A stretch of 48,041 nt of DNA from Acidobacteriota bacterium (GTDB taxonomy: Bacteria > Acidobacteriota > Vicinamibacteria > Vicinamibacterales > JAKQTR01): NCBI GenBank assembly GCA_026393755.1, contig JAPKZO010000035.1, positions 1 through 48,041 on the forward strand. The letters run 5' to 3'. The stretch's first letter is position 1. Each line of letters opens with the position of its first letter. The notes beneath the pieces were generated by a model, which saw only the letters and a list, made by a program, of their open reading frames with translations, did not search any database and was not told the origin of the DNA. Of the stretch, positions 855-48,041 are shown piece after piece. Position numbers and translations under genes: made by a program.

Positions 855-945
855 GGAGAGGTACCGAAGTGGTCGTAACGGGGGCGCCTCGAAAGCGTCT
901 TGTCGCGTAAGCGGCACGGGGGTTCGAATCCCCCCCTCTCCGCCA
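855..945 (+). tRNA. tRNA-Ser(CGA)
   Basis: The 91-nt gene includes an encoded CCA end. The acceptor stem is GGAGAGG pairing with CCTCTCC, and the discriminator base is G. The anticodon arm is GGCGC / loop CTCGAAA / GCGTC, giving anticodon CGA. A long variable arm (TGTCGC, GTAA, GCGGCA) is typical of class II serine tRNA. The T arm is GGGGG TTCGAAT CCCCC. The 3' 24 nt are duplicated at 13,278-13,301, so this tRNA is the insertion site of the island that follows and keeps an intact 3' end after integration. Confidence 0.96.
922..945 (+). repeat. attL: 3' end of tRNA-Ser(CGA)
   Basis: This 24-nt direct repeat begins GTTCGAATCC and ends CTCTCCGCCA. It covers the T loop to the CCA end of the tRNA. 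The identical sequence is at 13,278-13,301. The next bases (TCCTT against GCCTT) also nearly match. Confidence 0.9.
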
Positions 946-992
946 TCCTTAAACTACTGTAAATAAAGCATTTATAATTCCTGCGCAGGGCC

Positions 993-1029: not shown

Positions 1030-2115
1030 GTGCTCAATCTCTATCGCCGCCACCTGATCGAGTGCCCATACCGCTCCAGAAGATACCGCCGCTGCCAGTG
1101 TCCGATTTGGATCAGTGGGAGTCTCCGCGGCGAGAAGATCCGGCGGTCGCTGGACCTGACTTCTTGGGAAGCGGCCTCGGACCTGGTCGCGGGATGGACC
1201 GCCGCGGGCGAAATCGGCATGGTGAAGGTGGAGGCGCCGCCGATCGCCGAAGCCGTGGACAAGTTCCTCGCCGATGCGAGAGCTCGGCATCTCGGTTGGG
1301 AATCGATTCGGAAATACGAGAGCTTCCTGCAACGCCGCCTTCTGGCGTGGTGCGACACGCGCGGACTGCGTCTCTTGAAGCGACTCGATATCGACAACGT
1401 CCGCGCATTCCGAAACACCTGGAAGGACGGTCCCGTTTACGCATCGAAGAACCTCGAACGCCTCCGCGCCTTCCTTCGCTTCTGCCGTGACAGTCGTTGG
1501 ATCAACGATAATCCTGCGCTCGCCCTCAAACTGCCGAAGGTGGCGGATGTTCCCACACTGCCGTTTACCGCAGGCGAGATGAAGAAGATCTTGGGGGCCT
1601 GTGGCAAGTACCGCGGCGACAAGGACCGCATGCGGGCCTTTGTGCTCACGATGCGCTACTCAGGACTACGAATCGGTGACACGGCGACGCTCAAGAGAGA
1701 CCGATTACAGGCGAACAAGATTCTGCTCTACCAGGCGAAGACGGGAACACCAGTCTACGTGCCCATCCCAAAGCTCGTGGTCGATGCGCTGGAAAAGCTG
1801 AAGAATGGCAGTGAATATTTCTTCTGGCAGACAGGACGGGGCACGGTTCGTACCATCACGTCGAACTGGGAGCGGTACCTGTCCAGTGTTTTCGATCTGA
1901 GCGGGGTGCCCGGCGCTCATTCTCATCGCTTCCGCGACACGTTCGCCGTGGAACTGCTTCTCGCCGGTGTCCCGATTGAGCAGGTCTCGATGCTCCTTGG
2001 CCATAGTTCCATGAGGATTACCGAGCGGCACTACGCCCCATGGGTCAAGGCGCGACAACACCAGCTTGAAGTTGCGGTGCGAAAGGCGTGGCGATCGGCG
2101 GCATCTTCCGCGTGA
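1030..2115 (+). CDS. Tyrosine-recombinase integrase of island 1
   Basis: A site-specific tyrosine recombinase that by position integrates and excises the island at tRNA-Ser(CGA). The catalytic set is visible: R215 (SGLRIGD), H300-x-x-R303 (HRFRD), H326 (LLGHSS) and nucleophile Y336 (ERHYAP). A core-binding SAM-like domain lies at about residues 70-165. The N-terminal 40 residues carry a Cys/Arg-rich segment (ECPYRSRRYRRCQCP) that may be a small zinc-binding or arm-DNA-binding domain. The length of 361 aa is usual for the family. It starts with GTG 1030 and I see no strong ribosome binding site, so expression may be low. It is convergent with the excisionase-like gene at 2335-2664. Confidence 0.93.
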   Translation: MLNLYRRHLIECPYRSRRYRRCQCPIWISGSLRGEKIRRSLDLTSWEAASDLVAGWTAAGEIGMVKVEAPPIAEAVDKFLADARARHLGWESIRKYESFLQRRLLAWCDTRGLRLLKRLDIDNVRAFRNTWKDGPVYASKNLERLRAFLRFCRDSRWINDNPALALKLPKVADVPTLPFTAGEMKKILGACGKYRGDKDRMRAFVLTMRYSGLRIGDTATLKRDRLQANKILLYQAKTGTPVYVPIPKLVVDALEKLKNGSEYFFWQTGRGTVRTITSNWERYLSSVFDLSGVPGAHSHRFRDTFAVELLLAGVPIEQVSMLLGHSSMRITERHYAPWVKARQHQLEVAVRKAWRSAASSA

Positions 2116-2664: not shown

Positions 2665-2952
2665 GGGACACTGCGTCCGGAGATTACCAGTCTAGGGTGA
2701 TGGCCTGTGGGAGCTTGTGCAAAACGTTCCACTGTCGGACGTTTTGCAAAGAACTTGTGGGAGCCGACAGCCGGATTGTTCGTCGGCTTCCACAGTTCTG
2801 GCAGCTTCCACAGGCCGTTGATGCTCGTGGTCGTGAGCCGTCAGCACGGAGCCGCCGCGATCGATCAACGTCACCGTGCGGTACCGATCCCGCTCCACGC
2901 CACGGCCTGCGATCGGTAGCAACGACGATGGCCCTCCGATCGGGTCCGGCGC

Positions 2953-3102
2953 GACCGATCAGTGCCACCGTGCGGTACCAATCCCGCTCTTCATCGCAGG
3001 CCGGGCCACGAATTTTGTGTTGCCCTTCAGCAAGCAGAAGATCCGGACGTCCAGCCGGACGTTGGCGGCTTCGCGAGCGTGCTTGTGTTGCCATGCGATG
3101 AC
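2953..3102 (-). CDS. Possible 49-aa conserved small protein in the repeat
   Basis: On the minus strand, AGAAGGA precedes an ATG by 7 nt and opens a 49-aa frame beginning MPVIAWQHKHAREAANVRLD and ending GTARWH. The second repeat copy has the same frame (MPLIARQPKHAREAVNIRLD, ending MGTAR). Differences between copies are largely conservative (V/L, V/I, A/V, K/E), which hints at selection on the protein. In the second copy the upstream ribosome site is poor. I do not recognise the family, and it may only be repeat sequence. Confidence 0.3.
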
Positions 3103-3196
3103 CGGCATGGTGATGTCCTTCTTGCTTGCAGAAAACCCGGATGCCGCGGCGGACCAGTTCGTGGATTGGGCAAGCAGAATCTGACGCCTGACGGGT

Positions 3197-3295
3197 GGGG
3201 CGAGGGAGGGAGCGACCCCCGAAAGAGAGCCGGCCCGTGGCGCAGCCCGGGCGGATCAGGCCGCCCAACAGGGGGGTCGCTCCCTCCCTCGCCCC
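3197..3295. repeat. 24-bp perfect inverted repeat around a 51-nt GC-rich spacer
   Basis: The left arm 3197-3220 starts GGGGCGAGGGAGGGAGCGAC and the right arm 3272-3295 is its exact complement. The spacer contains a smaller stem (GGGCGG ATCAGG CCGCCC). The left arm recurs at 47,979-48,002 with the window ending before its partner. It may be a transposon or integron-like end, a strong hairpin, or a replication/processing structure. Confidence 0.7.
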
Positions 3296-3310
3296 CATCC
3301 TGGCGTCGGT

Positions 3311-4031
3311 CGGAGCCACGGCGGCAGACGAACGCCGCCTCCCTGGAAACACGTGGCGGAATGGGACTTGCGACGACGGGGCGCTCTGCCGACCGGGCCG
3401 GATGGATAGACATCCAGGTAGAAGGGTGGATCCAGGATCGCTGTCTAGGCCGATGTCTATCTCCATCTCCGCGTCGAACGACGTGGTGGCGTGCGGGCCG
3501 CCGCTCACCCAACCCGATCGCGAGGTCTGCGGAAGGTGATCAGTGGCGTGCCTGCGAGGTCTCATCGGGTGTCGGCTCCTGCCCAGAACATCAGGCAAGA
3601 ACCGTGACAGGTACGCCTGCCGACGCCGGTTCGGCATGCCCAAGCACCGTGAAACCCGAACAATTCACGGCCGAAGTATGCGTGGGCCAACGCTCCGGAG
3701 CTACGCAACGCCAGCGTTCACGCCGGCGGAGATCACGGATTCTTTACGTTCTGGAACAGTCCGAACGGAAAGATCCTTTCAAGGAGAGGAGACCTAGCGC
3801 CTCGGGTACGAATGCCGGGTTGACGAGGATTGCGCGGCGTCAATTACTATTGCCGGCGGCAGATCTAATTGTCGCCGCGCAAGGATCAGCCCGCGCAGGA
3901 CCGCCGACGGGTGGCACGGGCGTCGATGGCCCATTAGTGCGGAGACTAGTTTACGCACGAAGGCTACTGCCAGAAAGGTGCCAGCATCTGCGGCGCCGGC
4001 CAGCGGCTCCAGGTGGGTGCACTATGCCGAT
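3311..4031. other. Gap without a supported gene
   Basis: No frame is convincing. A plus-strand stretch near 3680-3790 reads like protein (YAWANAPELRNA, then HGFFTFWNSPNGK) but lacks a start and a recognisable domain, so it may be a gene relic. The palindromic element at 3830-3882 lies within this gap. Confidence 0.45.
3830..3882. repeat. Palindromic mini-element (CAATTA/TAATTG type), copy 1
   Basis: The arms TTGCGCGGCGTCAATTA (3830-3846) and TAATTGTCGCCGCGCAA (3866-3882) pair over 17 bp with one T-T mismatch around a 19-nt loop. A relative lies at 13,084-13,132. The form resembles REP-like or miniature non-autonomous elements. Confidence 0.65.
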
Positions 4032-4751
4032 CTATAGATTCTCAAGAGCTGCAAGCAGCCGTTCGGCAAACGCATCAGCAGTAGTCTTGACCCAGTTGGG
4101 CTTGAAAAGGCCAAGCCAGCCAACGACGAGAGCTGCAGCAACGACCGCCGAAGCAACTGGCACGGGCCTTATGGAATCGTCGGTAGCGACGTCACGATAG
4201 AGGAGTAGGCCGATTGCTGCAGCAGCCAAGAAGGCAAGCGTCAGCCCAAGCGGTTTCATCCCCCAGAAGTTCCGACGGAATCCATAGTCGCAGTTAGCTT
4301 CGAACACAAGCGGAAAGGCATCCCGAGATCTGGTCTTCTCGAGCAAGTAGACCGTGCAGGCGTCGTAGACGGCGTCCGCCGCTTTCGGATTAGCCATCTC
4401 CTCGTCTCGAGATGGCATGTGAACATTCGGCAGGACGAGGGCCAGCTTTCGGTGCCGGTGTTCGACCATTACGGGGTTGGCAGAATCGTTGTGACGCAGG
4501 AGCCGTGCCGTCGGTCTTCCACCCCATTTGGCGAAGAGTTCCGGCTCCTTCGCCTTCCCCCGGTCGCGCGCCACCTGTGCAATCAGAGCCGTTCCACCTG
4601 ACCATACGATGAAACTCCACAAAGCGCCGGCAACAAGCGCGTCGGTCGGAAACCAAGCCAAGACAGCTAGTGCAACGGGCAGGGCCACCAATAACGCTGG
4701 CTGCAGCCGCGCTCGTCTGACGTATGGGTCTAGCAGTGAATTGGTTTTCAT
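4032..4751 (-). CDS. Four-TM membrane protein of the E2-E1-JAB operon
   Basis: A 239-aa protein with two N-terminal hydrophobic helices (about residues 18-35 and 38-58), a soluble region of about 95 residues, and two C-terminal helices (about 168-185 and 198-215). The soluble part holds a block that looks conserved (ELFAKWGGRPTARLLRH, then YGFRRNFWGMKPLG just before the third helix). The start codon overlaps the stop of the E2-E1-JAB gene by 4 nt (ATGA), so the two are translationally coupled. In many immune operons a small multi-TM protein is the membrane-damaging effector. That role is inferred from context, as I do not know a characterised homologue. It has no C-terminal glycine, so it is not an obvious conjugation substrate. 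Confidence 0.78.
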   Translation of the reverse strand: MKTNSLLDPYVRRARLQPALLVALPVALAVLAWFPTDALVAGALWSFIVWSGGTALIAQVARDRGKAKEPELFAKWGGRPTARLLRHNDSANPVMVEHRHRKLALVLPNVHMPSRDEEMANPKAADAVYDACTVYLLEKTRSRDAFPLVFEANCDYGFRRNFWGMKPLGLTLAFLAAAAIGLLLYRDVATDDSIRPVPVASAVVAAALVVGWLGLFKPNWVKTTADAFAERLLAALENL

Positions 4752-7114
4752 GAGTGATTCGTTCGTGAACGTGAACCGGACAGCAAGGCACGCAGGGTCT
4801 GTACCAGCCAGTCCCAGGAGCGGCTCGTAGCTCGTCGTGTCAAGTAAGAAGCCGAAGGCGTTCCCCAGAAGTCGTCACGCCTGAAGAGGTACGCAGCGGG
4901 AGTCGGGTTGGCCGGCGTGTGGCCGACGATCACCAGCAGTGCTTGGGCGATCGGCGGATCGAAAGACGACACGAGACGTGCCATGCCCTCCAGATCGATA
5001 CTGCTCGGCTCTGGTGGAGCGCCAGGGTGCGTGTGCCACATGCCAACAAAGTGGACTCCGTTCAGCGTCTCGGCTCTCCGTTTGGCGTCCGTTTCGTGGC
5101 AACCCTTCGTCCCGCACACGAATCCAGATCGGGTAGCCCGACTGTCCGGCGGGGGCTCCGTGGCGTCTGTGATCCATACAACGCGCGACGCGTCATCTCG
5201 CTCCCCCAACAGTAACCCGCCAGTCTCAACGCGCGGACCTCTCCTCCGACGACCTTCTTCTATGACGGAGAGGATGCTGGCCCAAGCATTGTCGCTGATG
5301 CGAACGTGGTAGCCCCGTAGGCCATCCTGCACGGTTCTCTCTGCCGTCCAAGTGAAGTGCGCGGCGACTCGCTCACTCGGTTCAGTGTCGAGGTCGTGAC
5401 GGAGAATGAAGTGCGCGTGTGCCGGGTCCGTGGAGGACGCATCGCGGGCCACCAGATTCGTCATGGCTCCGGCGAGTTCCGCGAGATCGGCCGACGAACC
5501 GACGAATGTGGGGTCAGAGCAGCCGGGCTCCGGTTGAAACAGCCCCTTCGACTTCCCGGTGTCTGGCCAGAATTCTCGCCGAAAACGCAGGAGCGATTCG
5601 TCCGCACAGGCGGCCAACTTCGCCCGTCGAGTTACATCCAGAGGGCCACCCGAGTGCTGCCCGGCGCGCGCGACTACTGCGAGTGCCCGCTCGGCGGCGG
5701 GACCGACTACCAAGGAAGCGACAGCAGGTCGTTTATCGGACGCCGATGCCCATCGCCGCTCAAGCTTCTTGAGGACCGACTGTGAGCCAGTCGATTCGAT
5801 GATGACATCAACGTCATCGTCCCAGCTCTCCGCCGACAGCAATCCAGTCACCAGGTCGTCCAGTTCCACCTCGACGTCAACTTCCCCGCGAATTCGTTTG
5901 AGTCGAAGAGCGAGCGACCCGGCCTTGCTCTTGCCAACGTCGGCATCGTCGAACTGCTGCCTGACCAGCAACCCCGGCGCGACAACTCCGCTGTCCCGCA
6001 ACACTAGCCTGCGAACACCAGCCCGAACAAGATGCTCGGCGACGTGGCTGCCCAGAGCACCGCATCCCCACAATGCGACGGTCTTGTTCCGAAAGAACGC
6101 CATCGGTGAACTATGGTCCCGTCTCGTCACGATCTCTGGTCGGTCCTCTCGAACATTGCACCAACTCACCTTCACACGCTCGGCCCAGTCCCAAATAATG
6201 GCCTCAACTTCCGCCCCGATCTCTTGAAGCCGTTCATGTTGAGAGTACTTCTCGACGGCAAGACGGAGAGCCTTCGCCATCATCGGCTCGATGAACCAGA
6301 CGCTCAAGTGCTGGCGTAGCTCGCCTCCACGAATGCCACGCATGGGCGCACCGATTACGACGTACAACGGCGCGTCTTCAGGGTTCCGAATCACAGCGAC
6401 TTGCAGCGCGAAAAGAAGGCGACCGCGCTCCACGCCTAGTGCCTCGAGATGCGTGACCAGCTCCCTCACCGATCGCGGGAACTCCCAGGGCATCGTCGAT
6501 GCCAATAGAACCGCTGCGCCGACCGGTGGCACCACTTCTTGCCCAAATGCTGGCAGCCAGCCGACGATATCGAGGCGGCGGTCGGATACGACCGACAGCC
6601 GTGCAAGACCATACCAATGATCAGCGCCTACGGCAGGCGCGTCCATCCTCGGGATTACTAGTTGGGGATGCGTCGGGTAGATTGCCGGCGGGTGAAGTGG
6701 CCCCCCCACTGGATCAAGCTGATTCGCGGCCCCCTGTGCCAACCACTCCTCGAGCCGAGTCAAAAAGCCGAAGAACCCGTCGGACGGATTCCATTCGACG
6801 CCAGGTGCCTGGTACAGGCAGAGGTGTCGGCTGAACTGCACGTGCGGAAAGCCCGCGAATCTCGAATGTCTCGTCTCGACGGTTGGGCGCTCGAACGGAA
6901 AATCTGGGGGAATGTCGATCAGAACTCGTTCGCGGTCGCGAAGCGGCAGACCGTCCTCTGCGCGGGCCAAGTGGCCGGTTCGGAGAGACAAATCGACACG
7001 TAATACGTTGGTGGTTGGCTCATCAGGCTTGAGTTCGACAACCTCCAGATCTCGGGCGCCGAACCTCGCGACCTCTCGCAATTGCTCGAGAGCCAGTTCC
7101 TGCCCTTCAGTCAT
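4748..7114 (-). CDS. E2-E1-JAB triple-fusion ubiquitin-pathway-like protein
   Basis: A 788-aa protein with three domains of ubiquitin-type conjugation. (1) Residues about 1-130 are a prokaryotic E2 fold: IDIPPDFPFERP, then HLCLYQAPGVEWNPSDG with candidate catalytic C99. (2) Residues about 335-560 are a ThiF/E1 adenylation domain: GCGALG (350-355), the RQQF...DVGKSKA block, and candidate E1 cysteine C532 in EPGCSDPTFVGS. (3) Residues about 600-720 are a JAB/JAMM metalloprotease with E630, H694-T-H696 and S704-x-x-D707. All key residues are present. The start at 7114 overlaps the stop of the upstream gene by 8 nt. An in-frame ATG at 7186 would overlap by 80 nt and is less likely. Such fusions occur in bacterial antiviral operons (CBASS-type Cap2/Cap3, Bil/Bub-like), but no ubiquitin-like protein or CD-NTase is next to it here. 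Confidence 0.93.
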   Translation of the reverse strand: MTEGQELALEQLREVARFGARDLEVVELKPDEPTTNVLRVDLSLRTGHLARAEDGLPLRDRERVLIDIPPDFPFERPTVETRHSRFAGFPHVQFSRHLCLYQAPGVEWNPSDGFFGFLTRLEEWLAQGAANQLDPVGGPLHPPAIYPTHPQLVIPRMDAPAVGADHWYGLARLSVVSDRRLDIVGWLPAFGQEVVPPVGAAVLLASTMPWEFPRSVRELVTHLEALGVERGRLLFALQVAVIRNPEDAPLYVVIGAPMRGIRGGELRQHLSVWFIEPMMAKALRLAVEKYSQHERLQEIGAEVEAIIWDWAERVKVSWCNVREDRPEIVTRRDHSSPMAFFRNKTVALWGCGALGSHVAEHLVRAGVRRLVLRDSGVVAPGLLVRQQFDDADVGKSKAGSLALRLKRIRGEVDVEVELDDLVTGLLSAESWDDDVDVIIESTGSQSVLKKLERRWASASDKRPAVASLVVGPAAERALAVVARAGQHSGGPLDVTRRAKLAACADESLLRFRREFWPDTGKSKGLFQPEPGCSDPTFVGSSADLAELAGAMTNLVARDASSTDPAHAHFILRHDLDTEPSERVAAHFTWTAERTVQDGLRGYHVRISDNAWASILSVIEEGRRRRGPRVETGGLLLGERDDASRVVWITDATEPPPDSRATRSGFVCGTKGCHETDAKRRAETLNGVHFVGMWHTHPGAPPEPSSIDLEGMARLVSSFDPPIAQALLVIVGHTPANPTPAAYLFRRDDFWGTPSASYLTRRATSRSWDWLVQTLRALLSGSRSRTNHS

Positions 7115-12957: not shown

Positions 12958-13083
12958 ACGACGATAGGGTGTGAATCGTACCGGGAATCTGGGAGAGCGA
13001 GTTATGTGAGTCAGGCCACCTTGGCGTGCTCATAATAGCGCGCCTCGTATTCCGCCGGCGGTACGCCCTGGACTGGATTCGTG

Positions 13084-13132
13084 GTGCGCGGCGTCAATTA
13101 CTTGTCGGCAGCTAATTGTCGCCGCTCACGTG
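13084..13132. repeat. Palindromic mini-element (CAATTA/TAATTG type), copy 2
   Basis: GCGCGGCGTCAATTA and TAATTGTCGCCGC face each other around a 12-nt loop. The element interrupts a repeat whose intact form lies near 16,900, with GTG on both sides as a possible 3-bp duplication. A relative is at 3830-3882. Confidence 0.65.
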
Positions 13133-13277: not shown

Positions 13278-13301
13278 GTTCGAATCCCCCCCTCTCCGCC
13301 A
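13278..13301 (+). repeat. attR: duplicate of the tRNA-Ser(CGA) 3' end
   Basis: The 24 nt are identical to 922-945. There is no tRNA body upstream, so this is the displaced end of the target. Beyond it lies a low-complexity GC-rich tract with no gene up to 13,533. Confidence 0.9.
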
Positions 13302-13533
13302 GCCTTCGCTCGCCCTCGGCTTGCCATCCACCTTGAGCGAGCTTCGGCTGGGCAAGCCCAGGACAGGCGAAGGCTGTCCCGCCAAAGCGCAACGGCGCGA
13401 AGGCGGACAAATCCCCCCTCCGCGCCGCGTCGCTGCCGGAGGTACGCCTCATTGTTCGCACGGTGCGGAAGTCACCCTGTCTGCGTCTCTCAGTCATTTG
13501 GATCCAAGTGCCGACTGCGGATAGGCTGTAGCC

Positions 13534-14167: not shown

Positions 14168-14846
14168 CCACGGGCTGGAGTCGACAGCGCGAATGTGTTC
14201 CTGAGTGTTTGCACTGCGGTTCAGTGCTGATCGTTGGGCGAGATCAAGGACAACGACAAAGACGACGAACGATCGAATCACGGATCGGATCGGTCGTCAC
14301 CCGGGCAAGGTGAAGCGGGCAGTAGCGAACGCTGAGGCCCGCCCGTTCGAGACATGCGCTGCCTGTGCGCCCTGGGTTGGCGCATGGCGTGCGCTGTTCA
14401 CCCTGGGCTTGGACTTGCGGGCCTGAAGCGCGCGCTTTGCACACATTCTTCCATCGGCAGCCACAAACGTTTGACTCCCGTTCCAGCCGCAGTGAGAATG
14501 CCCTTGAGAACAACAGGCGGTGCAGGCGCCTTGTTGGTCCAGTCACAGCGATGTCTCCAGTTGACGCCCGGCGTCGGGAGAGATTGACTCCCCAAGATTC
14601 GGCGGTGCGTGTCGGCCCTGAGTGCGGGTTCTCATCTGTTCGCATCGTGGGCGAACGCCACGCGCGATTCGTCCGCCATGCACGCCCATCGAACACCCCG
14701 GTTGACCGTCGGACCGCACGCCGGATGCCGGCTTCCGCCATCGGCTGTACGGGGTCTTTGCATCGCGCCTGCGCCAGGGCGCGTGGCCCCCGTGGGCTGC
14801 TGTCTGCAGGCGTATCTGGTCAGCAACTACAAGGAAGGAGGAACGA
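14168..14846. other. Gap holding a repeat; no supported gene
   Basis: The left third is a repeat (14,232-14,447). I see no coding frame in 14,448-14,846 on either strand. CTAA followed by CCACGGGCTG (14,164-14,177), at the edge of the HepT stop, resembles the end of the MITE at 44,303-44,460. Confidence 0.5.
14232..14447. repeat. TA-associated repeat, copy a
   Basis: About 215 bp, diverged from 16,728-16,945. Shared stretches include GACGACGAACGA, GGATCGGATCGGTCGTCAC, GAGGCCCGCCCGTTCGAGA and GGGCCTGAAGCGCGCGCT. Each full copy lies just downstream of a complete toxin-antitoxin pair. Confidence 0.7.
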
Positions 14847-16727: not shown

Positions 16728-16945
16728 TGAGTGAGATCAAAGACAGAGACGACGAACGACGGAACCACGAATCGGATCGGTCGTCACGTGGGAAAGGCCA
16801 GGCGGGTCGTGGCGAACTCTGAGGCCCGCCCGTTCGAGAGCTGCGTTGCGTGCGCGTACAGGGTTACCGCATGGCGGGCGCCGTTTACCCTGGACTGGAT
16901 TCGTGGGCCTGAAGCGCGCGCTCTCGCGTACGCGATAAGTACGTC
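16728..16945. repeat. TA-associated repeat, copy b
   Basis: This diverged copy of 14,232-14,447 lies 86 bp after vapC. Its 3' part (CTGGACTGGATTCGTGGGCC) is the uninterrupted version of the interrupted copy at 13,068-13,170. Confidence 0.7.
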
Positions 16946-45256: not shown

Positions 45257-45346
45257 GGAGAGATGTCCGAGTGGCTGAAGGAGCACGCTTGGAAAGCGTG
45301 TGTAGGGGAAACTCTACCGAGGGTTCGAATCCCTCTCTCTCCGCCA
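45257..45346 (+). tRNA. tRNA-Ser(GGA)
   Basis: A 90-nt class II tRNA with encoded CCA. The acceptor stem is GGAGAGA with TCTCTCC and discriminator G. The anticodon arm is CACGC / loop TTGGAAA / GCGTG, so the anticodon is GGA. The long variable arm is GTAGGGGAAACTCTAC. The T arm is GAGGG TTCGAAT CCCTC. An integrase gene ends 11 bp downstream, which marks this tRNA as the target of a second island. Confidence 0.96.
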
Positions 45347-45357
45347 ACTAACCTGTT

Positions 45358-46473
45358 CTACCGAAGCAACTTAACGGCTTCGCCTTTCGCCGTCTCCAAC
45401 ATGTCTCCACGTTCTCGGCGGAAATCGAGCAACTGAACGGCCGTTCCGAGCGCCGCGGGACTCAGGTGCATGTACCGCTGCGTCGTGATCAAGTCCTGGT
45501 GCCCGGCCAGTTCCTGGATCGCCCGGGCGGGTGCTCCGAGCATCGCCAGGTGCGAACAGAACGAGTGGCGCAGCATGTGCGGACCATTGTTGACGAGGCC
45601 CGCTTTCCGCGCTGCCCGACGGACGAACCCTTGAACCAGACCTTCGGTCAGTGGAGTCCCATCGTCCTGATACAGCACCAACGATCCGCGAAGGTGCCGA
45701 TTATCCTTCAGTGCCGTCGCGAGACGGTTGGTCAGCGGAACGTACCGAAGCCGGCCGCCTTTCGGTGACGCGACTTGCCCCTTCCAGGCTGACCGCTGCA
45801 CGCACACCTGCCGCTTGGCGAAGTCGATGTCGGTCCACTCGAGCGCGACCATCTCACCCAGTCGCAATCCCGCCTCGCCCGACAACAACACCAGCAGATA
45901 GGCGCGAGGGTCCGTTACCTTCGCGGCTGCGACGAGTCGCTCGAATTCATCGAAGTCATAGAATCGAGTCGACCCCTTCGACACCGGAAGCAATTTGACG
46001 GAGCACGCCATCCTCTCGATGACGTCCCACTCCACCGACTTCTTCAGCATCACGTTCAGCACCGTCAGAATGTTGTTGACCGTTTTCGGGGCCTTCTTCA
46101 GCAAGCGATGTTTCAATCGCTGCACGTCCTCGTTGAGAATCGTGTTCAGCGACTTCGCACCGAGTGACGGCGAGAGATGGACCCTGACGATCATCTCTTT
46201 CGCCGCGACTCCACTGGCCTTCTGTCGATTCGCGCGTGCGTATCCGTCCAAGAAACGTGGCGCGAATTCATCAAGTGTGGGCACCTCCTTCCGCGATTGG
46301 GGCACGCCGTGTTGCAGCAGATGCCGCTCGCGGTCTTCGCCCCATCGGACGGCCGCCGACCTTGACGAGACCGGGGCCTTGGCCCGCTCTCGTCGTCGCG
46401 ACCCGTTCGGCAGCCGGACGGTGATGTCCAGTTCCCAGCCGCCACTTCGATACGGTCGGATCTTCACGCTCAT
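45358..46473 (-). CDS. Tyrosine-recombinase integrase of island 2
   Basis: A 371-aa phage-type integrase. Catalytic residues are R204 (EAGLRLGE), H299-x-x-R302 (HMLRHSFCSH), H325 (LAGHQD) and Y334 (TQRYMHLS). The N-terminus is an arm-binding domain with a Lys/Arg-rich beta unit (MSVKIRPYRSGGWELDITVR), and the core-binding domain spans about 68-165. I chose ATG 46,473, with GGGGAG 9 nt ahead; TTG 46,479 is an alternative. It follows the excisionase gene directly, so both are coexpressed, and reads toward tRNA-Ser(GGA), the opposite arrangement to island 1. Confidence 0.95.
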   Translation of the reverse strand: MSVKIRPYRSGGWELDITVRLPNGSRRRERAKAPVSSRSAAVRWGEDRERHLLQHGVPQSRKEVPTLDEFAPRFLDGYARANRQKASGVAAKEMIVRVHLSPSLGAKSLNTILNEDVQRLKHRLLKKAPKTVNNILTVLNVMLKKSVEWDVIERMACSVKLLPVSKGSTRFYDFDEFERLVAAAKVTDPRAYLLVLLSGEAGLRLGEMVALEWTDIDFAKRQVCVQRSAWKGQVASPKGGRLRYVPLTNRLATALKDNRHLRGSLVLYQDDGTPLTEGLVQGFVRRAARKAGLVNNGPHMLRHSFCSHLAMLGAPARAIQELAGHQDLITTQRYMHLSPAALGTAVQLLDFRRERGDMLETAKGEAVKLLR

Positions 46474-46479
46474 CGCCAA

Positions 46480-46746
46480 TTACTCCCCTGGCGATGACGC
46501 GCGCTTCTGGTCCAGCCAGTTTAGCAGGTCGTCGGCACGCAGCAGCACTCGCCGGCGGATGTGAAGAACCCCCGGCAACTGCCGCCGTTCGGTCATCGCG
46601 TAGATGGCACGTCGCGTTGTGCGGAGAAGCGTTGCGGCCTCGTCGACGGTGAGAAGGACGGGTAGCCCGCCAATCGGTGCGGGCGGGCGGCCGGACACAC
46701 GCTCCCCGCGTGCTGTGGCTCCAGTGGCGGTCGGAACGAGACTCAT
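46480..46746 (-). CDS. Excisionase-family HTH protein of island 2
   Basis: An 88-aa MerR-like HTH protein: VLLTVDEAATLLRTTRRAIY, then AMTERRQLPGVLHIRRRVLL and DDLLNWLDQK, the classic HTH-17/excisionase pattern. GGAGG stands 7 nt before ATG 46,746, which fixes the start. It should bend DNA at the att region and promote excision by the integrase encoded next. Confidence 0.87.
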   Translation of the reverse strand: MSLVPTATGATARGERVSGRPPAPIGGLPVLLTVDEAATLLRTTRRAIYAMTERRQLPGVLHIRRRVLLRADDLLNWLDQKRASSPGE

Positions 46747-47108: not shown

Positions 47109-47467
47109 GTTGGGATCCTTCCGGCAGATGCTCGGCTCATGTGAAGCCGCCGCCGAGCCCGAGCGACGGACGTGGCACAGCGAAGTCCAGGCGGCCGAAC
47201 GCCGTTCCGCAAACAGCAGGACCGGCATACCCGAGCAGGGGCGTTGCTTCTGACCGACCGCCGCCGTCGTGGGCAGCGACGCACCGCAAGTTTCCGCCAA
47301 GATTCCGGTCGGTTCGGATGAGAGAGGCACGGGCAGAAAGTGAGCGGCGCCCCGGCTGAGGATCGCGGACGCCGGAGTGTGGCTGTGTGCGTTCCGATTC
47401 TGACATCGTCGCACCCGATTCCGCCGGTGGGTGGGGTCTTCCGAATCACCCAGGTCGACAAGTCGTT
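47109..47467. other. Gap without a supported gene
   Basis: I find no convincing frame, RNA or hairpin between the small protein and the shared repeat. Confidence 0.45.
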
Positions 47468-48041
47468 GATGATGGCCTGTGGAAGCTCGTGCAAGACGTT
47501 TCGGGGTCGCGCGCCTTGCAAAGAACTTGTGGGAGCCGAGTACCACTGTTCCTGTCGGCTTCCACAGTTCTGGCAGCTTCCACAGGCCGTTGACGCTCGT
47601 GATCATGTGGCCCTCAGCACCGCGCCGCCGCGACCAGCGATCGTCTTCGAGTGGAACCGACCCCGCTCCCCGCCACGGGCTGCGATCGGTAGCAACGACG
47701 ATGGCCCTCTGCTCGGAATCGCCGCGACGGATCAGCGTTACCGTGCCGTACCCATCCAGTTCTCCATCGCAGCCTGGGACATGAATTCCGTCTTGCCCTT
47801 CTGTAAGCAAAAGATGGGTGCGTCCAGCCGGATGTTGACGGCTTCGCGAGCATGCTTGGGTTGCCGTGCGATGAGCGGCATGAGGATGTCTAACTTGCTT
47901 GCACGAATCCGGGACGCCGCAGCGGAGCAGTTCGTGGATTGGGCAAGCAGAATCTGACGCCTGACGGGTGGGGCGAGGGAGGGAGCGACCCCCGAAGATG
48001 AGCCGGCCCGTGGCCCGGCTCGGGCGGACCAGGCCGCCCAA
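47468..48041. repeat. ~600-bp repeat, copy 2 (island 2), cut by the window end
   Basis: Homologous to 2699-3310 in the same orientation. The minus strand has the matching small frame at 47,737-47,880 (MPLIARQPKHAREAVNIRLD). The left arm of the 24-bp hairpin is at 47,979-48,002, and the partner arm would lie just past the window. Confidence 0.72.

Follow-up and report, generated by a model that had tools for sequence, protein, structure and literature searches.

The window analysed here, the entire 48,041-base contig JAPKZO010000035.1 of an Acidobacteriota bacterium, contains two copies of a repeat, A (2699–3310) and B (47471–48041, truncated by the contig end), which lie in two islands at tRNA-Ser genes. 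The core of this repeat is a hairpin that, as comparison of many loci shows, is a conserved three-way-junction element of about 100 nt occurring across Acidobacteriota, and it sits just inside one end of several unrelated kinds of mobile element throughout that phylum. Association with tRNA islands makes up only a minor share of this wider pattern. The comparative evidence for the identity of the element is strong; we infer its mechanism, for which initiation of synthesis on single-stranded DNA (ssDNA) is our favoured, though tentative, reading.

The first-pass annotation of the window had described the two copies as diverged but collinear, and a BLAST search within the genome bore this out (83% identity, E 5e-171). 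The edges differed from those first drawn, since homologies either run past them or break inside them. Two further, partial copies were found in the genome, at C19:6622–6880 in a tRNA-Ala (CGC) island and at C37:64063–64189 in a tRNA-Asn (GTT) island. The repeat is composite. Likeness between A and B begins at the 5′ edge of the hairpin, likeness of the C37 copy to B ends at its 3′ edge (47251–47594 matches L010:7848–8187 at 80%), and in the C19 copy the hairpin is reduced to its 3′ half. The hairpin of copy A folded with a z score of −9.25 as DNA and −8.86 as RNA; that of copy B reached −6.09 as RNA, and the first arm was broken in its own best fold. The middle of the repeat includes a direct repeat (2837–2895/2931–2989). 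The second, GC-rich hairpin also occurs in C19, and copy B has its 5′ arm, the remainder lying past the contig end. A small protein gene, one of the functions suggested earlier for the repeat, was rejected, because substitutions were spread evenly over the codon positions (22/22/24 and 21/22/22), without three-base periodicity, and all gaps were of a single base. Leaving the hairpin aside, the repeat had no clear relative in 149 genomes; outside the home genome only four stretches of 32–57 bases matched (E 1.3e-4 to 7.9e-4). The hairpin is the only piece of the repeat found widely elsewhere.

A covariance model built from five copies of the hairpin (R1) matched 80 places in 42 of 149 relatives, and a second model (R2), built from 47 matches, matched 60 of a phylum-wide set of 396 Acidobacteriota genomes. 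Three of the 42 genomes had supplied R1 and nine of the 60 had supplied R2, which leaves 39 and 51 independent genomes, respectively. All model searches were confined to Acidobacteriota, and those of more than 40 genomes used stricter filters, with which weak matches may be lost; non-Acidobacteriota names among the matches belong to metagenome contigs, mostly short, and may reflect binning errors; L114, labelled Acidimicrobiia, is exactly as long (39,375 bases) as contig G037:C19 from the home order. BLAST with one hairpin query gave no match in plasmids or phages. A known Rfam family was rejected: at the gathering threshold Rfam 15 matched nothing on the window except tRNA, and among seven hairpin loci compared at E values up to 5 there were four weak matches, none of them at the hairpin.

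The first-pass annotation had also proposed that the repeat may be a functional part, and such a structured part was strongly supported by the presence of hairpins and by abundant compensatory changes. In the alignment of the 47 matches, changes on both sides were seen in 28 of 42 base pairs, and 95.8% of the cells were paired, compared with 79.2% in shuffles and 37–51% when the partners were slid (identical rows were counted once in these counts and in those of G·T, A·C and strand stability). Excluding the outermost pair and three special pairs, one per stem, there were 63 G·T cells against 4 A·C cells, and the second set, drawn from the phylum, gave 40 against 6; this ratio is probably inflated, because matches to a structure model lean towards G·U pairs. 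The plus strand was more stable than the minus strand in 46 of 46 copies with RNA and DNA parameters alike. Together, the excess of G·T over A·C and this difference in stability indicate that the plus strand is the folding strand, and strand-specific folding is a feature expected of a single-strand origin or primosome assembly site. The special pairs occupy the same place in each of the three stems, after a foot of (G)TGG or TGC. In the 47-match set they were G·T in 92 cells, A–T in 39, T–T in 5 and G–C in 2. In the phylum set, the pairs of the two inner arms were G·T in 30 and 32 of 40 and G–C in 4 and 2, and that of the outer stem was G·T in 21 and T–T in 12; the 3′ partner was mostly T. A C/T-rich tract, reaching 82% per column, lies 18–31 nt upstream of the hairpin. 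An intrinsic terminator pointing outward was disfavoured by the strand comparison and the G·T excess, and the T-run expected behind a GC-rich terminator hairpin was absent, with no T enrichment on the 3′ side of the plus-strand hairpin among 46 aligned copies (row L090 omitted); the minus strand was moderately T-rich behind the hairpin.

A transposase gene lay on the 3′ side of the hairpin in 33 of the 47 matches (ISL3, 7; IS21, 14; IS481-like, 6; IS3, 2; IS256, 1; IS110, 3), the families having been assigned by Pfam for representatives and by likeness to these for the others. Three matches fell in tRNA islands. Another three were located at HNH-DUF222 genes (L061, L062 and L071), the reading frames of which enter the hairpin and stop 66–69 nt inside it. 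No element was assigned to the remaining eight, which include L060 (an IS481-type end without its gene), L072 (an IS21-type end), L086 (a serine recombinase downstream) and a place on contig C5 of the home genome. Among 46 further loci, 21 had a transposase on the 3′ side (IS21, IS481-like, IS110, IS256 and one IS240-like), one (L210) had an ISL3 gene on the opposite side, one (L201) had a tyrosine integrase upstream, four were short units of genome G316, and the other 19 (five in G456) had no assigned element. L053, like L201, has a tyrosine integrase nearby. Complete elements show that the hairpin sits inside them: at L019, terminal repeats were found at 158–173 and 1648–1666 with the hairpin between the end and the gene, and G316 carries six near-identical copies of a hairpin-bearing IS110 element. 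The short units of G316 (L188–L191) have the same left boundary as the resident IS110 element and end at or near the hairpin; they look like deletion derivatives of it. At L088 (G002), two hairpins, 2817–2916 (+) and 4699–4799 (−), point towards each other across 1.8 kb, close to the end of a contig.

The orientation of the hairpin was compared with the ends of the elements. Among 46 testable matches, 14 had a repeat (E < 0.001) within 160 bases on the 5′ side of the plus-strand hairpin, with its partner downstream. On the 3′ side, where 37 matches were testable (including 9 of these 14), there were five repeat hits, the best with E 0.001. The best hit of L078 in this terminal-repeat search was a simple repeat array and was left out of the count. 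The further 46 loci, 43 of them testable on each side, gave eight 5′ terminal repeats (E < 0.001). Hits on the 5′ side at L182, L191 and L206, and one on the 3′ side at L190, were judged not to be terminal repeats, and no 3′ hit was accepted. Wherever a clear terminal repeat was seen, the plus strand reads inward. The transposase gene could point either way relative to the hairpin: among the IS481-like genes, most IS21 genes and the IS3 genes, many end right behind the hairpin, and the ISL3 genes, some IS21 genes and one IS110 gene start after it. Since the direction of the gene varies and every clear terminal repeat is on the 5′ side, the orientation of the hairpin is fixed relative to the end of the element and not to its gene.

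Closely similar hairpins were found in unrelated families, with identities of 88% between L057 (ISL3) and L082 (IS110), 84% between L067 (IS3) and L078 (IS256), and 80% between L063 (ISL3) and L084 (IS21). The nearest neighbour of a hairpin came from the same family in 25 of 42 cases, with uncertain labels treated as separate families. Presence also varied within families. Among 30 ISL3 loci searched, a strong hairpin match was present in six, namely the four full-length ISL3 copies with at least 91% identity (L129, L130, L131 and L150), an interrupted copy (L147) and L134; no hairpin was found at distant ISL3 copies such as three each in G041 and G019, although the distant loci L063 and L066 do carry it. 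The IS481-like gene of L076 was accompanied by a hairpin in three of five loci. In the 42 hairpin-bearing genomes, 26 of 81 IstB (IS21) genes lay within 3.5 kb of a hairpin, compared with 2 of the 150 PF01609 (IS4-type) genes listed out of 208, both more than 2.4 kb away (Fisher p 1.4e-11; without G041 and G078, 19/59 vs 1/83). This count used start-to-start distances, IstB matches above 100 bits and the 80 hairpin places of R1. Eight families that move by copy-out-paste-in transposition are named in the available text of PMC9333248, and five of them, ISL3, IS21, IS3, IS256 and IS110, carry the hairpin.

We consider it possible, with a probability of roughly 40%, that the hairpin is a single-strand initiation site for elements that replicate while moving, and that it works as ssDNA. 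According to the available text of PMC9333248, the figure-eight formed in copy-out transposition is resolved by replication primed from the flank, and the available text of PMC4595007 describes a single-strand origin, sso1, on the integrative element ICEBs1. Replication of a copy-out element, or of an island after excision, in the course of transposition or transfer would peel off the strand with its 5′ end at the hairpin-bearing border; the hairpin would fold on this strand, and the host would start or load second-strand synthesis there, an action resembling that of a single-strand origin or primosome assembly site. The 5′ end of the peeled-off strand would lie at the attacked end, and a hairpin facing inward at this end would stand where such a site would act. 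The foot (G)TGGR/TCCA, repeated in the three stems, may be what a host factor reads. The same host-readable module would benefit any element with such an intermediate, and this could account for the sharing of the module among unrelated families. An origin-like role, put forward in the first-pass annotation, is retained as one of the two leading mechanisms. A little more speculative is the idea that a host-readable replication-start hairpin, read via its repeated stem foot, is exchanged as a plug-in module among unrelated transposon families and the tRNA islands of one phylum.

Several observations weigh against initiation on ssDNA. IS481 is absent from the copy-out families listed in the available text of PMC9333248, and the match at L203 adjoins an IS240-like DDE gene. 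Neither the HNH-DUF222 genes nor roughly one-fifth to one-third of the loci fit any element that replicates while moving. At L210 the ISL3 gene is on the opposite side of the hairpin. The IS3 loci L067 and L080 have the hairpin at the 3′ end of the gene, unlike a known IS3-family member, of which the attacked end is the 5′ one. The family preference rests on a single contrasting transposase family, PF01609, and we know of no single-stranded stage for these tRNA islands. Finally, G·U pairs are at least as compatible with RNA as with DNA.

This last point leads to the other leading mechanism, an inward-facing RNA attenuator, which we regard as possible though rather doubtful. Transcripts entering the element from its flanks would fold the hairpin and be stopped or silenced, so that the element would be protected against being activated by chance and against antisense interference; the C/T-rich tract upstream could load Rho. 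Such a role agrees with the inward reading of the plus strand, with the tolerance of G·U and avoidance of A·C, and with that tract itself, and the available text of PMC2965389 describes family-specific 'mobile attenuators' upstream of transposases, including those of ISL3. It agrees less well with the lack of a T-run, with a sequence conservation above the needs of a simple terminator, and with the many loci at which the hairpin lies at the 3′ end of the transposase gene, where plus-strand RNA would be antisense. Moreover, a general insulator should suit IS4-type elements too, yet so few of the PF01609 genes listed were near a hairpin. The family pattern and the independence of orientation from the gene lead us to prefer initiation on ssDNA, although the HNH genes are well explained by neither.

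Sharing without any further role would be expected if elements swapped ends at the hairpin, as a recombination or template-switch site. Borders of homology do coincide with its edges (A vs B, B vs C37, and L054 vs other ISL3 copies) or fall inside it (C19), and unrelated families carry close hairpins; we nevertheless hold this to be improbable, because it leaves the strand rule, the inward orientation and the G·U foot unexplained, and because within the ISL3 and IS481-like groups the hairpin is inherited with the element. Less probable still is a self-mobile hairpin of the repetitive extragenic palindrome (REP)/bacterial interspersed mosaic element (BIME) type or the miniature inverted-repeat transposable element (MITE) type, moved by an enzyme in trans. 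The stems begin with GTGG, as in some REPs, and the four short units of G316, which have the left boundary of its IS110 element, end inside the outer stem of the hairpin. These units, however, have the appearance of IS110 deletion derivatives, and in complete elements the hairpin is enclosed by the terminal repeats and is moved together with them. PF01797, the domain of the REP-associated tyrosine transposase (RAYT)/IS200 genes, was found in 11 of 14 genomes, both with and without hairpins, and in neither of the carriers G000 (the home genome) and G041. Single-arm copies numbered 0–6 per strand per genome in 14 genomes, as few as in a reversed control. A REP element is disfavoured on these grounds, and the island-targeting mobile unit considered in the first-pass annotation is unlikely. 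Most unlikely of all is a part specific to islands, such as an enhancer of integration or excision for tyrosine recombinases. Within this genome, four of the five places are tRNA islands, with the repeat inward of the integrase and small gene (the exception, the weaker C5:271361–271460, had no tRNA within the 8.1 kb fetched), and tyrosine integrases occur near L201 and L053. The link to tRNA islands noted earlier thus holds locally; in related genomes the hairpin is carried inside insertion sequences of several families, and these account for most assignable copies (33/47 and 21/46), which contradicts a general role of this kind. Integron attC was set aside after a by-eye comparison with its consensus motifs.

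The four islands of this genome share one order, namely tRNA, integrase, small gene and, on the inner side, repeat (Table 1). The Phage_integrase domain (PF00589) is present in the integrases of all four, and the small gene is HTH_17 by Pfam in three of them; the small gene of island A had no Pfam match and is excisionase-like by position only. As had been noted earlier, the integrases of islands A and B differ (361 aa on the plus strand vs 373 aa on the minus strand) and did not match each other in tblastn at 1e-5. Island A is bounded by two 29-bp repeats of the tRNA 3′ end. In the C19 island the integrase is broken up into two reading frames that overlap (L009 7053–8167), with the Phage_integrase match in the second only. 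Island A has two copies of another repeat, palindromic and about 50 bp long, at 3830–3882 and, near the far end, at 13083–13128, and the C19 island has one (L009 4387–4438, 96% identity). Outside island A, a 186-bp direct repeat, 82% identical, was found at 14251–14436 and 16738–16922.

Table 1. Positions in the window of the repeat components and of the neighbouring island features.
Feature	Position	Strand	Remarks
tRNA-Ser (CGA), attachment site of island A	855–945	+	ARAGORN
Near attachment repeat, island A	922–950		29-bp repeat of tRNA 3′ end
Tyrosine integrase, island A	1030–2115	+	PF00589, E 5e-19
Small gene between integrase and hairpin, island A	2335–2664	−	109-aa open reading frame
Three-way-junction hairpin, copy A	2702–2816	+	115 nt; outer stem 2702–2715 with 2803–2816, two inner arms
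Middle of repeat, non-coding	2817–3194		83.6% A–B identity, no codon periodicity, single-base gaps
Second hairpin, GC-rich	3197–3295		24-nt arms 3197–3220/3272–3295, perfect complement
Sequence common to A and C19 island only	3296–3780		3120–3780 90% identical to C19:6152–6812
Far attachment-site repeat, island A	13278–13306	+	96.6% identical to 922–950
tRNA-Ser (GGA), attachment site of island B	45257–45346	+	ARAGORN, Rfam tRNA
Tyrosine integrase, island B	45358–46479	−	PF00589, E 4e-32
HTH_17 gene, excisionase-like, island B	46480–46746	−	PF12728, E 7e-11
Upstream stretch (~220 bp) common to B and C37 (tRNA-Asn) island	47251–47470
Three-way-junction hairpin, copy B	47474–47588	+	covariance model match, 128.7 bits

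Among known systems, REP and BIME elements moved by RAYT transposases are imperfect palindromes with a conserved GTGG-like foot, as here. In contrast to them, the present hairpin has few copies per genome, forms a predicted three-way junction, lies inside insertion sequences and occurs in a home genome without PF01797. The mobile attenuators described in the available text of PMC2965389 are likewise conserved hairpins near transposase genes, including those of ISL3 and IS3, and are thought to block entering transcription; they are terminators, mainly species-specific and each tied to one transposon family, whereas the hairpin reported here lacks a T-run and has one fold across six families. 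The sso1 of ICEBs1, in the available text of PMC4595007, resembles it as a non-coding part of an integrative element proposed to start second-strand synthesis. Unlike the hairpin, sso1 was found through its likeness to plasmid single-strand origins and is not described there as common to insertion sequences, and its activity was measured, whereas the hairpin is known from sequence comparison. The non-coding part of IS110 insertion sequences also holds a structured element, the bridge or seek RNA; in the available text of PMC11208160 and PMC11187229 this RNA is bound to IS110-type recombinases, and an identity of the two, for which the fold should occur only with DEDD recombinases, was rejected because DDE families also carry the hairpin fold.

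A literature search limited to open-licence papers yielded no description of such a cross-family hairpin. The novelty lies in this sharing between families, for which we found no match in Rfam or in the open-licence literature searched; to our knowledge, structures at transposon ends are properties of single families. The data suggest that a single plug-in part is common to different mobile elements. A single covarying fold in at least six transposase families, at HNH genes and in tRNA islands, with a fixed orientation relative to the element end, implies a common host factor that these elements exploit, and the hairpin offers a handle for isolating this factor as well as a marker for mobile elements in poorly annotated Acidobacteriota genomes. 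If our reading is true, it would allow direct tests of a step in copy-out transposition, or in the silencing of elements, that is poorly understood, and the hairpin would represent shared cis equipment of a whole mobilome.
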